NCBI GenBank assembly: GCA_014695255.1 | Contig: JACJNX010000064.1 | Coordinates: 1-64,000 of the forward strand | Length of the DNA: 64,000 bases | Direction: 5' to 3' | Source of the DNA: Cyanobacteria bacterium FACHB-63 | GTDB lineage: Bacteria; Cyanobacteriota; Cyanobacteriia; Leptolyngbyales; Leptolyngbyaceae | In this document: positions 4,579 through 9,056 of the stretch, piece by piece | Numbering within the stretch: the stretch's first letter is position 1 | How the letters are laid out: the number at the start of each line of letters is the position of its first letter | The notes under the pieces: model-generated | What the model saw: the letters and a program-made list of their open reading frames with translations, nothing else | Told to the model about the DNA's origin: nothing | Databases searched by the model: none | Translations under genes and position numbers: made by a program

Positions 4579-4792
4579 TGTACAGTGACTTTATTATTTG
4601 TCATGGAGACACATTAGTGTCGTTTAAGAGGCAGAGCTAGACCTAGCTTGCTTTTCTGCCTAAAGCTAAGCTGACAATCCTGATGATCTAATGCTAGGTT
4701 GCTGAACGAACATTTTCTGAAATCCTTTAATTAAAGAGGGTTTGCTCAGCAACATGAATTTGTCTTGATGTCATCTAATTTGGCACTGTACA
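4579..4792 (+). mobile_element. 214-bp miniature element with Tn7-like/CAST-like ends, copy 1
   Basis: Non-coding element bounded by TGTACAGTG and CACTGTACA. Inside each terminus are further short spaced motifs of the form GACA-N-ATTA-N-TGTC (for example GACACATTAGTGTC at the left end; ATGAATTTGTC and TGTCATCTAATTTG at the right). This layout resembles the TnsB-site ends of type V-K CRISPR-associated transposons as I remember them (TGTACAGTGAC followed by ATTA/TGTC motifs). A second copy in inverted orientation lies at 8322-8532, about 97% identical by eye. The 5 bases outside each end are GCTCA and TCAGA, so there is no target-site duplication. It contains no gene and would need a transposase in trans. 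Confidence 0.75.
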
Positions 4793-4819
4793 TCAGAGGG
4801 CGCGATCGTGCCCTCTGAC
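4793..4819. terminator. Hairpin, possible former terminator of the tetR gene
   Basis: Arms TCAGAGGGC and GCCCTCTGA enclose GCGATCGT-like loop sequence. It directly abuts the right end of miniature element copy 1. There is no clear T-run, so termination is only possible. The element may have inserted between the regulator gene and this hairpin. Confidence 0.4.
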
Positions 4820-5140
4820 TTGACTTGAGCTCTGATTCAACAAAGATTTATATCGGCTCTATATCACTGGCTTGAGGGATTGGTATTATTTGCTCATCAT
4901 CAATCTTCAGGGTGTAATTTTCAACCTAATTCATCCGAAACTGGTGAATCTACATGATAGAAAAATAGTTTTGTTCGATTAACGCTTTTTAGATACTCTC
5001 TAGTTCCGCAGTTAAATCTTCTCGGCTCCTCGCCCCCGCAGCCTCAATTTTCGGGGAAGTTCGCTTAGAAGTCTCCCAAAACTAAAGAATTTGGGGCGCA
5101 ATTGCGTCAGTTCCAACTCTCATTCATAACCCCCAAAACA
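4820..5140. other. Upstream region of the DUF4347/sugar-dehydrogenase gene
   Basis: No gene is supported here. The region is AT-rich before about 5020 and probably holds the promoter of the large gene that follows. I see no clear ribosome site at the ATG at 5141. Confidence 0.4.
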
Positions 5141-8100
5141 ATGAGCATACCTTTCAGGCAGCCTACCCCGTTCGGTCAGAACTTCGAGGTAGACAACACT
5201 TTCATTCAACAAAATTTGAATCCAGCCTCAGATTTTCAGCTATCAAATACGTTTGGATCATTGACGCGATCGAGTCATCGCAACCGATCTGTCGCCAGCC
5301 AGCCTAGCGCCTCGATTCTATTTATCGATCGCGGCGTCGAAGCCTATTCCACTCTAGTAGCCGCCGCATCGCCAGAAGTTGAAGTAATTTTGCTCGATCC
5401 CATGCAAGATGGCATTCAACAAATCAGCAATGTTTTAGCCGATCGTCGCAACCTTGCCAGCCTGCACGTCGTAACCAACGGTCAAACAGGTCGAATTCAA
5501 TTGGGCAGCACCGAACTAAATTCCACCACGATTCGGCACTATGACGACCAACTCAAAGCCTGGGCTAAATCGTTTACCTCCAATGGTGACATTTTGTTAT
5601 ATGGCTGTAATGTCGCGAGTGGAAAAGGTCAGCAATTAATCCAGCAGATCAGTAATCTGACCAAAACCGATGTTGCCGCATCGACTGACTTAACGGGCAG
5701 CAGCGATCGCGGTGGTGACTGGATACTCGAAGTAAAAACAGGGGCGATCGCCGCTTCGATCGCCTTCCAACCGCGCGCGCTCAACGCTTACACGGGCGTA
5801 CTGGACACAGGCGACGGCTTGCGAGGAGAGTACTTCGACAACAACAACTTTACCAACCCGAAATTCACTCGTGTCGATCCTACGATCAGCTTCAATTGGG
5901 GTAAAAATTCACCCGCTACTGGTATGAACAAGGATACCTTTTCCGTGCGCTGGACCGGGCAAGTGCAAGTGGCCCATACCGAAGAATACACCTTTTACAC
6001 AACAGCAGATGATGGATCGAAACTGTGGCTGAATGGACAACTGGTTGTTGATAGCTCCAACAGTCGCAGAGGGCAAGAAGTCAGTGGTAAGATTCGACTC
6101 AATGCCGGTCAGCGATATGATGTCAAGCTGGAATATTTTGAAAATACGGCGGACGCATCAATGGCGTTGCAGTGGTCGAGCGCCAGCCAAACGAAGCAAG
6201 GCATTCCGCAATCAATGCTGTTTAGCACGATTCCCCAAGGTTCCGGAACGATCAGTCTGGCAACTTCCACACCACCGAATGTTAGTGAAGACGCAGGCAA
6301 AGCATCAGTGATGGTGGTCCGCACGGGTGGCAGCACGGGTGCTGTCACGGTGACGTATAGCGTTGATGGTCGAACAGCATTGCCAGGATCAGACTACATC
6401 ACTCCAAGTGGTAGTCTCACGTTCCAAGAGGGCGAAACCAGCAAGACGATCGATATTACCCTGGTTAATGACGACGTATTTGAATCTGATGAGGACTTTA
6501 CGATCGGCCTGTTAGGCACCAATGGAGTGGGTCAAGTCGGCGCACCTCGAACTGCCACAATCAAAATTGTGGATGACGATAGCCCATCGACGGTTAGCTT
6601 CAGCCAACCCAGCTACAGCGTCAACGAAAATAGCGGGACTGCCTCCGTCATCGTGCAACGGACAGGAAATATAGCCAAGCCAGCCTCAGTCAATTACGCC
6701 ACGAGTAATGGAAGCGCAAGCGCTGGATCGGACTACACAGCGACTTCGGGTACCGTCAGTTTTGCATCCGAAGAAACGAGCAAGACGATTTCCATTCTGA
6801 TCACGAACGACATCTCAGTTGAGTCGAGCGAAACGGTCAATCTTGCCTTGAGTAACCCTGGTAAGTGGACGACATTAGGATCCCAGAGTACGGCCAGCCT
6901 AACCATTGTGGATAATGATTCTTCGGGCACATTCAGGCGGGAAACGGTGCTGACGGGACTCAACCAACCCACCACGATCGACTGGACTCCGGATGGGCGC
7001 AATATGTTCATTGCCCAGCAGAACGGAGTTGTTCGAGTGATGCGAGACGGCGTGCTTCAGTCAACTTCACTCATTGATATCTCCCAACGAGTGAATGGTG
7101 TGCGCGATCGCGGTTTATTGGGATTGGCAATTCATCCAAACTTTCCTGCCACGCCCTACGTTTACCTGCTCTACACCTATGACCCACCAGAAGCAGCCAG
7201 CACACCCGATAGTGCGAACAATCGTCCGGCGCGACTGGGTCGCTTCACAGTAACAACCGATGCTGCTGGTAACCTTACAGCAGCACCTAGCAGCGAGGTC
7301 GTGCTGCTGGGTGAAAATAGCCTTTGGGCCTATACAAGCCGACCGGACGGAAACAGTACTAATGACTCGTCGATTCCTCCATCAGGAATTAAGAATACGA
7401 CCAACTTGGCGGGTATTCCAGACTCAGCACTTGATATTGATGCCAACGGTAATCTCACCAAAAATGTGCGGGACTATTTAGCAACCGATAGCGAATCTCA
7501 CACGATCGGAGCGGTGCATTTTGGTCCCGATGGAAAGTTGTATGTAAGCGTCGGGGATGGTACTTCCTACAACTTTGCAGATCCCCGGACTGTACGTGTG
7601 CAAGACCTGAACAACCTTTCAGGAAAAATTCTGCGGATTGATCCGATCACGGGGGATGGGTTATCCGATAACCCGTTCTATTCAGCGACCGGAGGAAGCG
7701 ACAATAATCGCGATAAAGTTTTCAGCTATGGTTTACGAAATCCGTTCCGCTTTACCTTCGACCCAGTCAGCGGACAGCCCGTGCTTGGCGATGTGGGTTG
7801 GAACACGTGGGAAGAAATGAACACCGGGCGCGGCGTTAACTTTGGCTGGCCATATTATGAGGGAGGAAATGGAACCAGTCTTCGACAAACCACGGGGTAC
7901 GGTGGCCTGCCTGAAGCTCAGGCATTCTATAACAGTGGTGGTGATCAGCAGGTTACTGCCCCCATTTATGCCCAAAGGCATGCCGATGGCGCAATTGCCA
8001 TCATTATGGGTGACTTCTATGACAACAATCGTCTGATTTTTGGCGATGTCCAGAATGGCAACATTTACGAGGCCACACTCGACAGCAATAATCGCCGAGT

Positions 8101-8227
8101 AGTCAGCAGCGTTCGAGTGTTTGACTCTGGGCTGACCTACGTTGTGGATATGGAGAAAGGACTGGACGGTAATATGTACGGGGTCAATATGGGAAATGGG
8201 ACGATTTTCCGGTGGGTTCCTGGTTAA
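5141..8227 (+). CDS. DUF4347, PA14, Calx-beta and PQQ-type sugar dehydrogenase multidomain protein
   Basis: Large, probably exported protein of 1028 aa with no classical signal peptide, a pattern common in cyanobacterial DUF4347 proteins thought to leave by type I secretion. Domains in order: DUF4347 (about 50-220, with DILLYGCNVASG), PA14 (about 225-370, beginning GLRGEYFDNNNF and including ADDGSKLWLNG), two Calx-beta repeats (about 370-610, each with GSDY and FEEGET-like strands), and a glucose/sorbosone dehydrogenase beta-propeller (about 615-1028, with GLLGLAIHPNF, GPDGKLYVSVGDG, SYGLRNPFRFTFD and GVNFGWPYYEGG). A surface or matrix carbohydrate oxidase is a reasonable guess. I chose ATG 5141 over TTG 5102. 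The gene sits alone between two inverted miniature elements, so it may be mobile cargo. Confidence 0.88.
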   Translation: MSIPFRQPTPFGQNFEVDNTFIQQNLNPASDFQLSNTFGSLTRSSHRNRSVASQPSASILFIDRGVEAYSTLVAAASPEVEVILLDPMQDGIQQISNVLADRRNLASLHVVTNGQTGRIQLGSTELNSTTIRHYDDQLKAWAKSFTSNGDILLYGCNVASGKGQQLIQQISNLTKTDVAASTDLTGSSDRGGDWILEVKTGAIAASIAFQPRALNAYTGVLDTGDGLRGEYFDNNNFTNPKFTRVDPTISFNWGKNSPATGMNKDTFSVRWTGQVQVAHTEEYTFYTTADDGSKLWLNGQLVVDSSNSRRGQEVSGKIRLNAGQRYDVKLEYFENTADASMALQWSSASQTKQGIPQSMLFSTIPQGSGTISLATSTPPNVSEDAGKASVMVVRTGGSTGAVTVTYSVDGRTALPGSDYITPSGSLTFQEGETSKTIDITLVNDDVFESDEDFTIGLLGTNGVGQVGAPRTATIKIVDDDSPSTVSFSQPSYSVNENSGTASVIVQRTGNIAKPASVNYATSNGSASAGSDYTATSGTVSFASEETSKTISILITNDISVESSETVNLALSNPGKWTTLGSQSTASLTIVDNDSSGTFRRETVLTGLNQPTTIDWTPDGRNMFIAQQNGVVRVMRDGVLQSTSLIDISQRVNGVRDRGLLGLAIHPNFPATPYVYLLYTYDPPEAASTPDSANNRPARLGRFTVTTDAAGNLTAAPSSEVVLLGENSLWAYTSRPDGNSTNDSSIPPSGIKNTTNLAGIPDSALDIDANGNLTKNVRDYLATDSESHTIGAVHFGPDGKLYVSVGDGTSYNFADPRTVRVQDLNNLSGKILRIDPITGDGLSDNPFYSATGGSDNNRDKVFSYGLRNPFRFTFDPVSGQPVLGDVGWNTWEEMNTGRGVNFGWPYYEGGNGTSLRQTTGYGGLPEAQAFYNSGGDQQVTAPIYAQRHADGAIAIIMGDFYDNNRLIFGDVQNGNIYEATLDSNNRRVVSSVRVFDSGLTYVVDMEKGLDGNMYGVNMGNGTIFRWVPG

Positions 8228-8241
8228 ATCTGCTCCTGCCG

Positions 8242-8286
8242 CCGGAATCGTAGCACCGGATGCTGCGATTCCGGCTAGCCTTTTTC
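8242..8286 (+). terminator. Rho-independent terminator of the DUF4347 gene
   Basis: Stem CCGGAATCGTAGCA paired with TGCTGCGATTCCGG (one mismatch), a 5-base loop, then CTAGCC and five T residues. It starts 15 bp after the stop codon. Confidence 0.75.
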
Positions 8287-8321
8287 TTGGAGGCGATCGC
8301 CCTCCGCCAGCGGTTTTCTGA

Positions 8322-8532
8322 TGTACAGTGCCAAATTAGATGACATCAAGACAAATTCATGTCGCTGAGCAAACCCTCTTTAATTAAAGGATTTCAGAAA
8401 ATGTTCGTTCAGCAACCTAGCATTAGATCATCGGGATTGCCAGCTTAGCTTTAGGCAGAAAAGCAAGCTAGGTCTAGCTCTGCCTCTTAAACGACACTAA
8501 TGTGTCTCCATGACAAATAAAAACACTGTACA
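8322..8532 (-). mobile_element. 211-bp miniature element with Tn7-like/CAST-like ends, copy 2
   Basis: Reverse-complement copy of the element at 4579-4792, with termini TGTACAGTG and CACTGTACA. Differences are confined to a few bases near one end and at single internal sites. The flanking pentamers are TCTGA and TTTAT. Reading outward from the GGCACTGTACA end, both copies are followed by TCAGA, so identity extends 5 bp beyond the terminus. Its outer end lies 4 bp from the 3' end of a partial tRNA-Ala. Together the copies bracket a 3.5-kb segment with a single gene. Confidence 0.75.
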
Positions 8533-8534
8533 TT

Positions 8535-8582
8535 TATGGAGCTAAGGGGAGCCGAACCCCTGACCTTCTTAATGCCATTGAG
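8535..8582 (-). repeat. Partial tRNA-Ala 3' end, probable attachment-site copy (att)
   Basis: This 48-bp segment matches 29703-29750 with two mismatches (8552 and 8570). It corresponds to tRNA-Ala nucleotides 28-73, from the anticodon stem to the discriminator base, and lacks the 5' half. It is in the same orientation as the intact tRNA gene. A 3'-tRNA direct repeat of this kind is the normal footprint of tyrosine-recombinase integration, so it probably marks one border of an island ending at the intact tRNA. Confidence 0.75.
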
Positions 8583-8702
8583 CATAGTTGTTCTCTTTAG
8601 TCTCGATGATGACTGCATTTTGAAATTTGCAATAACGGTAATACCAGAACTAAACCAATCGAATTACACCCAAAATAAAAAATTGTTTTATAGGAGATAG
8701 CT

Positions 8703-8893
8703 GGTAACGGTGGTAACAGTAAGTCAGAGCGCTTATAAATTAACGCTTTTGAGTGTTACCATCTCGTAGATTAAGGTGGTAGCAGGTGGTAACAGTTACA
8801 CTCACGCCAAGTCAGCAGTGCTGATTGAAAGGCAACAATTGCAATGTTTTCAGCACTGTTATCACCTCAAAGCTAGGGGTTACCACCTCGATC
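8703..8893. repeat. Cluster of GGTGGTAAC/GTTACCACC iteron-like repeats
   Basis: At least six copies or near-copies of GGTGGTAAC occur on both strands (around 8703, 8709, 8753, 8775, 8785, 8858 and 8879). The form GTTACCACCTCGATC at 8879-8893 recurs at 27132-27146. Such clusters in mobile elements often bind a replication initiator or regulator. No function is shown here and no real ORF is convincing in 8583-9056. Confidence 0.5.
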
Positions 8894-9056
8894 GACAAAC
8901 TCCACCCCTGACTTTGAAAAAAAGATCAAGCCTAGGGCTGAGTCAGGGTTTGAGGTCTAAAACCTGCTCAAATTCTGTCCAAAGTATTGGAATAAGAAAA
9001 ACTCAGGGAGACTTTTATGGGAAGAGCAAGACAAAACTCAAGCGAGTGTTTAATGA

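Follow-up and report, generated by a model that had tools for sequence, protein, structure and literature searches.

Two nearly identical, oppositely oriented repeats that bracket a single large gene raise the question of what such repeats are, how they came to lie where they do, and whether they could carry the gene between them. They occupy positions 4579–4792 (copy 1, + strand, 214 bp) and 8322–8532 (copy 2, − strand, 211 bp) of the window, the whole stretch of DNA analysed here (64,000 nucleotides, contig JACJNX010000064.1), from Cyanobacteria bacterium FACHB-63. A preliminary description had taken them for non-coding miniature elements moved in trans, with ends like those of type V-K CRISPR-associated transposons (CASTs), and had suggested that the pair might mobilise the gene as cargo. 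Our analysis indicates that the repeats are probably miniature inverted-repeat transposable elements (MITEs) that are moved in trans, replicatively and often without resolution, by a TnsA-less transposase of the V-K type.

The sequence, a repeat search and the family alignment agree on both copies, which are 97% identical from end to end; the repeat search recovers them as a 207-nt inverted pair with arms 98% complementary and separated by 3519 nt, and in one MAFFT alignment the copies differ by a 3-base gap and a few substitutions. No open reading frame of at least 60 aa lies inside either copy. Both copies terminate in TGTACAGTG/CACTGTACA, with 9-bp tips in inverted repeat, and each end holds two TnsB-like sites of the ATTA...TGTC type. 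In copy 1, the left-end (LE)-type end spans 4579–4621 (+ strand, tip TGTACAGT; sites at about 4587–4602 and 4606–4621) and the right-end (RE)-type end spans 4751–4792 (− strand, tip CACTGTACA; sites at about 4751–4765 and 4770–4784), the ends being placed by the family alignment and comparison with CAST ends and the site limits by eye. In copy 2, the RE-type end (8322–8363, + strand; family alignment, catalogued ends) faces the intervening gene, while the LE-type end (8493–8532, − strand; family alignment, MAFFT) has a small deletion adjoining its tip. RE-type sites lie about 13 and 33 bp from the tip, a spacing equal to that shown by CAST ends. The coordinates, orientation, identity, lack of coding capacity, tips and TnsB-like motif spacing given in the preliminary description are thus all borne out.

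The element recurs well beyond the window. The host genome (7.23 Mb, 179 contigs) contains six matches, namely the two window copies and matches on contigs C33, C69, C40 and C71; that on C40 ends at position 201 of 214, and the C71 fragment is a copy of a 198-bp subfamily. Matches at E ≤0.001 were found in 24 of 144 genomes (the host and end-only matches counted), and 61 of 388 members of the cyanobacterial class match when end-only matches are counted, some of these being CAST ends. Near-full copies of about 213 bp are present in 23 of the 388 genomes, host included; this figure follows our own cut (at least 196 of 213 columns spanned, two candidates scored per genome) and is a lower bound, as copies of the 198-bp subfamily are broken up into end matches by the search. 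When 34 copies are aligned they fall into two subfamilies, of about 213 and 198 bp, whose ends are conserved and whose interior varies more; a second family alignment took in 22 copies. The RE-end pattern matches six named contigs, including those of Stenomitos frigidus ULC18, Leptolyngbya sp. ES-bin-22 and Drouetiella hepatica, and the element had no match in plasmid and phage collections. Its recurrence in the host and in other genomes excludes a chance origin, and its short length, absence of genes, terminal inverted repeats and several copies at different sites are those of a MITE. Contig C70 of genome G001 (locus L127) carries a further inverted pair (266–488 and 2482–2704) sharing about 14 bp of RE flank, along with a 249-bp inverted repeat at both contig ends. 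MITE ends at G000:C40:~113, C25:~175 and C26:~16510 are broken, as judged by eye, by a GGCTCTT... sequence, probably an unrelated insertion sequence (IS) inserted into the MITE.

The ends connect this family to V-K CASTs, whose ends are described as carrying 22-bp sites that follow an 8-bp tip (PMC9371665). A pattern of the tip and first TnsB-like site matched in 48 of 388 genomes, with both MITE and CAST ends among the matches, while its reversed control gave none among the matches listed. The closest end found to the MITE ends is the tnsB-side end of an element in genome G100, which lies between ends at 155988 and 179872 of contig C1 and contains matches to TnsB, TnsC, TniQ and Cas12k, the last (profile positions 181–640) at 176807–178186. 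Over 44 ungapped positions the RE consensus agrees with this end at 36 and the LE consensus at 34; shuffles in which the 9-base tip was held fixed gave aligned scores of at most 25 (RE) and 27 (LE). The RE-type end of window copy 1 matches at 35 of 44 positions, and its LE-type end at 17 of 44 owing to a 1-nt indel, with an aligned score of 32 against at most 28 in shuffles. Another V-K element, on contig C4 of genome G034, encodes TnsB, TnsC, TniQ and Cas12k (E 4.2e-292) and has an end, TGTACAGTGACTAATTAAATGTC..., 9 bp from a tRNA-Gly gene, with further sites, one of them reading GAGACAAATTAGTGTC. Against this tRNA-proximal end (the tnsB-side end of the G034 element was not located), the LE consensus agrees at 21 of 44 ungapped positions, with an aligned score of 32 against at most 25 in shuffles, and the RE consensus at 25 of 44, with 33 against at most 26. 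A candidate end in G092, from another TnsB group, fits more poorly (18–21 of 44). Tip and TnsB sites are therefore common to the MITE and to elements with matches to V-K TnsB and Cas12k, as the preliminary description had supposed; far from occurring only with an unrelated IS transposase, similar ends are carried by V-K elements beside tRNA genes. The MITE is not itself a CAST, since it is non-coding and has no TnsB, TnsC, TniQ or Cas12k. As a separate matter, the G100 element (L166, L304) has a 10-bp direct repeat, ATTTCAGTTA, on each side rather than one of 5 bp.

Machinery that could act on such ends is present in the host. Four host TnsB proteins match the V-K profile, two of which, on C30 and C40, have adjoining TnsC and TniQ; a 637-aa Cas12k frame with CRISPR repeats beside it lies on C19, the sole host Cas12k match and on a contig different from those with TnsB. 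Genes for V-K TnsB, TnsC and TniQ and for a Cas12k, which the preliminary description proposed to look for, are thus present in the host, and movement in trans is plausible. Across the class, 15 of 23 genomes with a near-full MITE have a Cas12k match, against 81 of 365 others (Fisher p 2.6e-5), a test that ignores phylogeny and counts weak and partial Cas12k matches. The C40 set (L055, 7118–12887) stands next to a telomere-resolvase-like gene (ResT-TelK_cat), possibly as a telomeric transposon, and similar resolvase matches occur near MITE or TnsB loci in G041:C158, G133:C78 and G079:C79. On C19 (L316, 1200–3950), Cas12k and the CRISPR repeats are accompanied by a separate degenerate repeat-spacer, which the contig tail resembles by eye, making the tail a possible homing site. 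Tn7-type loci separate from the V-K sets are found on host contigs C39, C90 and C48 (L011, L012, L013, L091–L095), with Mu-transpos_C frames of 761–781 aa and one or two TniQ matches each.

V-K CAST insertion is described as producing a 5-bp duplication (PMC9527255), and among 30 MITE copies that have both ends and score 50 or more (truncated copies, and duplicates on the reverse strand, excluded), the flanking pentamers match at four of five positions in five copies at offset 0 (permutation mean 0.90, p 0.0017), and in only 0–1 of 30 at shifts of 1–7. In G009, the two copies L049 (C37) and L030 (C66) are identical in sequence, and ACCAC is at once the right pentamer of L049 and the left pentamer of L030. 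When the outer flanks are joined with a single ACCAC, a 526-aa open frame results, with the domains GMC_oxred_N (7–301) and GMC_oxred_C (371–502); it aligns with choline oxidase 3nne_A in a single alignment that spans the junction (5–519), and with its best match, 8rpg_A, in two colinear stretches. We read this as a GMC oxidoreductase gene divided by the element into two distant halves in a recent jump. More broadly, when the 134 of 149 catalogued ends that were assigned to a genome are compared (15 unused), 3 within-genome pairs out of 296 have complementary outward pentamers, where the between-genome rate (24 of 8615) would predict about 0.8. The three are the G009 pair, a mini-element in G333 described below, and a pair of RE-type ends in G153 with complementary CTTGC flanks. 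The last was considered as a composite and rejected, as its joined flanks give a longest frame of 76 aa and one such pentamer match is within chance.

The flanks of eight copies were compared within the genus, and three copies were informative; for the copies on C40, C26, C25, C31 and C71 there was no informative relative, or the flanks were repeats only. The left flank of the C69 copy matches the host's own C77 up to the element and 5 bp into it, and its right flank matches C121 and G006:C28 from the element onward. For the C33 copy, the left flank matches G001:C53 up to the element and the right flank matches the host's own C101 and G006:C28 onward; the alternative that this copy inserted cleanly into a transposase gene, presumably IS701-like, was rejected, as relatives place its two flanks apart. 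The left flank of the copy on G006:C37 is conserved in G001 and G002, both of which diverge at the element, while the element and its right flank are common to the host's own C71. Each of these three copies thus lies at a rearrangement breakpoint. The window is homologous to G006:C21 as far as 4567, 11 bp short of copy 1, and again to G006:C28 from 9425, which places the pair inside a synteny break. The window pair is probably an older remnant of replicative, unresolved transposition.

These observations can be joined in one scheme. The MITE would be a non-coding element of about 213 bp, each end of which corresponds to an end of a V-K CAST (a Tn7-like transposon without TnsA) from the tip through the second TnsB site. 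V-K-type TnsB and TnsC, encoded elsewhere, would recognise the ends and join them to a target with a 5-bp stagger. V-K CASTs are described as lacking TnsA and transposing replicatively (PMC11406308); because the element would, without TnsA, remain joined to its donor, replication would give cointegrates, inversions or deletions. New copies would then land on breakpoints, and each of two partner copies would keep one side of the 5-bp duplication. We infer both that V-K TnsB is the enzyme, acting in trans, and that the element moves chiefly through replicative events that are left unresolved.

Several results weigh against this reading. A perfect 5-bp duplication is seen in none of the 30 copies, some of which are not independent of one another: they include the identical G009 pair and the orthologous L006 and L040. 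Of 67 ordered within-genome pairs, one shows a split duplication, the unbroken GMC gene was not found in the single genus mate of G009 searched, and the pentamer-pair count is weak alone, so that the restored GMC gene carries the argument. As to the ends, the G100 element has its TnsB in two separate frames and its Cas12k matched only from position 181, and so may itself be decayed; the host's own TnsB-side end on C105 fits less well (28–30 of 44), and the TnsB-site-like repeats adjoining the host Cas12k read differently by eye. The matches seen included no autonomous element that shares the MITE interior or both MITE ends, and hence no cognate transposase. Lastly, 8 of the 23 genomes with near-full copies have no Cas12k match.

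This last result also favours a rival, which we regard as a possible though less probable account: that the MITEs are moved by a V-K-related Tn7-like element without Cas12k, resembling Tn5469, with one TniQ and apparently untargeted insertion, and not by a CAST. A review describes Tn5469 as having no cargo genes, one TniQ and an apparent lack of target specificity (PMC11406308), and the host has four V-K TnsB proteins against its one Cas12k match on another contig. V-K CAST ends are described as situated downstream of tRNA genes (PMC9938897), and of the 149 ends catalogued here 17 are no more than 50 bp from a tRNA gene. None of these 17 comes from the 213/198-bp family, which in the loci examined has no end within 150 bp of an ARAGORN-called tRNA gene. 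Window copy 2 adjoins a tRNA fragment only, a tRNA-Ala-like 3' fragment at 8537–8583 (− strand), 4 nt beyond the copy and outside the element. Against this rival stands the presence of Cas12k matches in the elements with the closest ends found. The stretch 8534–8910, comprising the ~48-bp tRNA-Ala 3' fragment and about 330 bp more, is 72–76% conserved in G002 and G006 and is perhaps an old integrase attachment site.

On the reading preferred here, with a V-K-type transposase acting in trans, the question of guides arises. TTGAAAG, which we take to be the V-K repeat tail and which was seen in the arrays examined, is absent from 32 of 34 near-full copies and lies within the interior in the G001 pair. 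An exact V-K array motif is nearby at two loci; the array-type motif GGTGGGTTGAAAG was sought by exact search only, which missed the host's own variant. Homing by the host's own guides gained no backing: the first 17 nt of five C19 spacers had no match, at up to 2 mismatches, in the window or in the own-genome loci searched, a small part of the host genome. AT content is mildly higher near the ends (0.52–0.56 within 50 bp, 0.49–0.52 beyond 400 bp; 36–42 copies). The scattered positions of the 213-bp copies would fit guide-independent insertion. A related mini-element behaves differently: at G333:C1:6260579–6261258 (L255, 1501–2180), a 680-bp V-K element with CRISPR repeats, TGTACAGTG ends and a perfect ACAAG duplication adjoins a tRNA-Val gene, and its 17-nt last spacer exactly matches the adjacent tRNA-Val stretch; with its guide retained and no evident protein gene, it seems to have homed. 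An 808-bp mini-element with V-K-type ends at G350:C1:1378771–1379578 (L242, 1501–2308) adjoins a tRNA-Ala gene, is flanked by an 8-bp direct repeat, ATTAGAGG, rather than one of 5 bp, and has a guide-like stretch that resembles the tRNA by eye only.

That the window pair forms a composite transposon is very unlikely. The gene between the copies (5102–8227, + strand, 1041 aa) has DUF4347, PA14, Calx-beta and GSDH domains, which confirms its assignment in the preliminary description as a DUF4347/dehydrogenase gene. Two inverted copies do flank this one gene, and Tn3-derived inverted-repeat miniature elements (TIMEs) are described as building composites of this kind, TIME-COMP (PMC4133298). The outer pentamers of the pair, GCTCA and TTTAT, are mismatched, however, so that no duplication brackets it, and no second copy of the 3.95-kb unit at 4579–8532 was found among the matches listed by E-value, weakest rows excluded, for eight genomes of the genus. 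Read outward, the inner TCAGA has the same sequence beside both copies, whereas a duplication would give reverse complements. Of the 296 within-genome pairs, 2 have identical outward pentamers, with about 0.8 expected (23 of 8615 between genomes), and the match is compatible with chance. The pair also lies inside the synteny break, and carriage of the DUF4347/GSDH gene as cargo, which the preliminary description had suggested, is not supported.

Least likely of all is a non-mobile nature for the repeats, whether as a conserved structured RNA or as a repeat of some other kind: they have fold z-scores of −5.18 (+ strand) and −3.46 (− strand), and the interior folded alone forms a moderately conserved hairpin (GTTGCTGA...TCAGCAAC; 4698–4753, + strand) adjoining the RE-type end, but both-sided changes in it are few on either strand and too weak for an RNA claim, no Rfam family reaches its gathering score, RNAalifold on 22 copies pairs mostly the two ends with a covariation term of only −0.26, and insertion sites differ, truncated copies exist and one 5-bp duplication is split.

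If MITEs moved by a V-K-type transposase are what the family represents, a wider proposal can be put forward tentatively, and with rather more doubt than the reading itself: that V-K CASTs have a widespread parasitic class of MITEs that use only guide-independent TnsB/TnsC, and that both mark the places where chromosomes of filamentous cyanobacteria have been rearranged and contribute to the rearrangement. The role in rearrangement is proposed because V-K transposition lacks both TnsA and a resolvase. The MITEs would then be the native footprint of unresolved CAST cointegrates, and a dispersed, non-autonomous family with V-K-type ends their natural record; the copies at breakpoints, together with the duplication split in G009, point to a persistence of unresolved events in nature. 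Tests of minimal ends could also draw on the 213-bp element as a donor, each of its ends having only two TnsB-like sites. No CAST-derived MITE is described in the titles and abstract openings listed in searches of open-access papers; subscription papers are mostly outside this coverage, and a prior report is possible.

Among known systems, three invite comparison. The Tn3-derived TIMEs come close to the MITE: as described, the 262-bp element is non-coding, is thought to be moved by a related autonomous transposase, makes 5-bp duplications and can bracket other DNA (PMC4133298). They differ in having the ends and transposase of the Tn3 family. Tn5469, compared by its description, is likewise cyanobacterial and Tn7-like; it has a single TniQ and inserts apparently without a specific target (PMC11406308). 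The type V-K CASTs (ShCAST, AcCAST, AnCAST) resemble the MITE in the TGTACAGTG tip, the order and spacing of TnsB sites, the apparent 5-bp stagger and the presence of V-K TnsB in cyanobacterial hosts, the likeness of the ends being drawn from those of G100 and G034. The MITE departs from them in having no genes and no recognised guide, in not adjoining tRNA genes, and in carrying two TnsB-like sites per end where a type V-K CAST has three to five.

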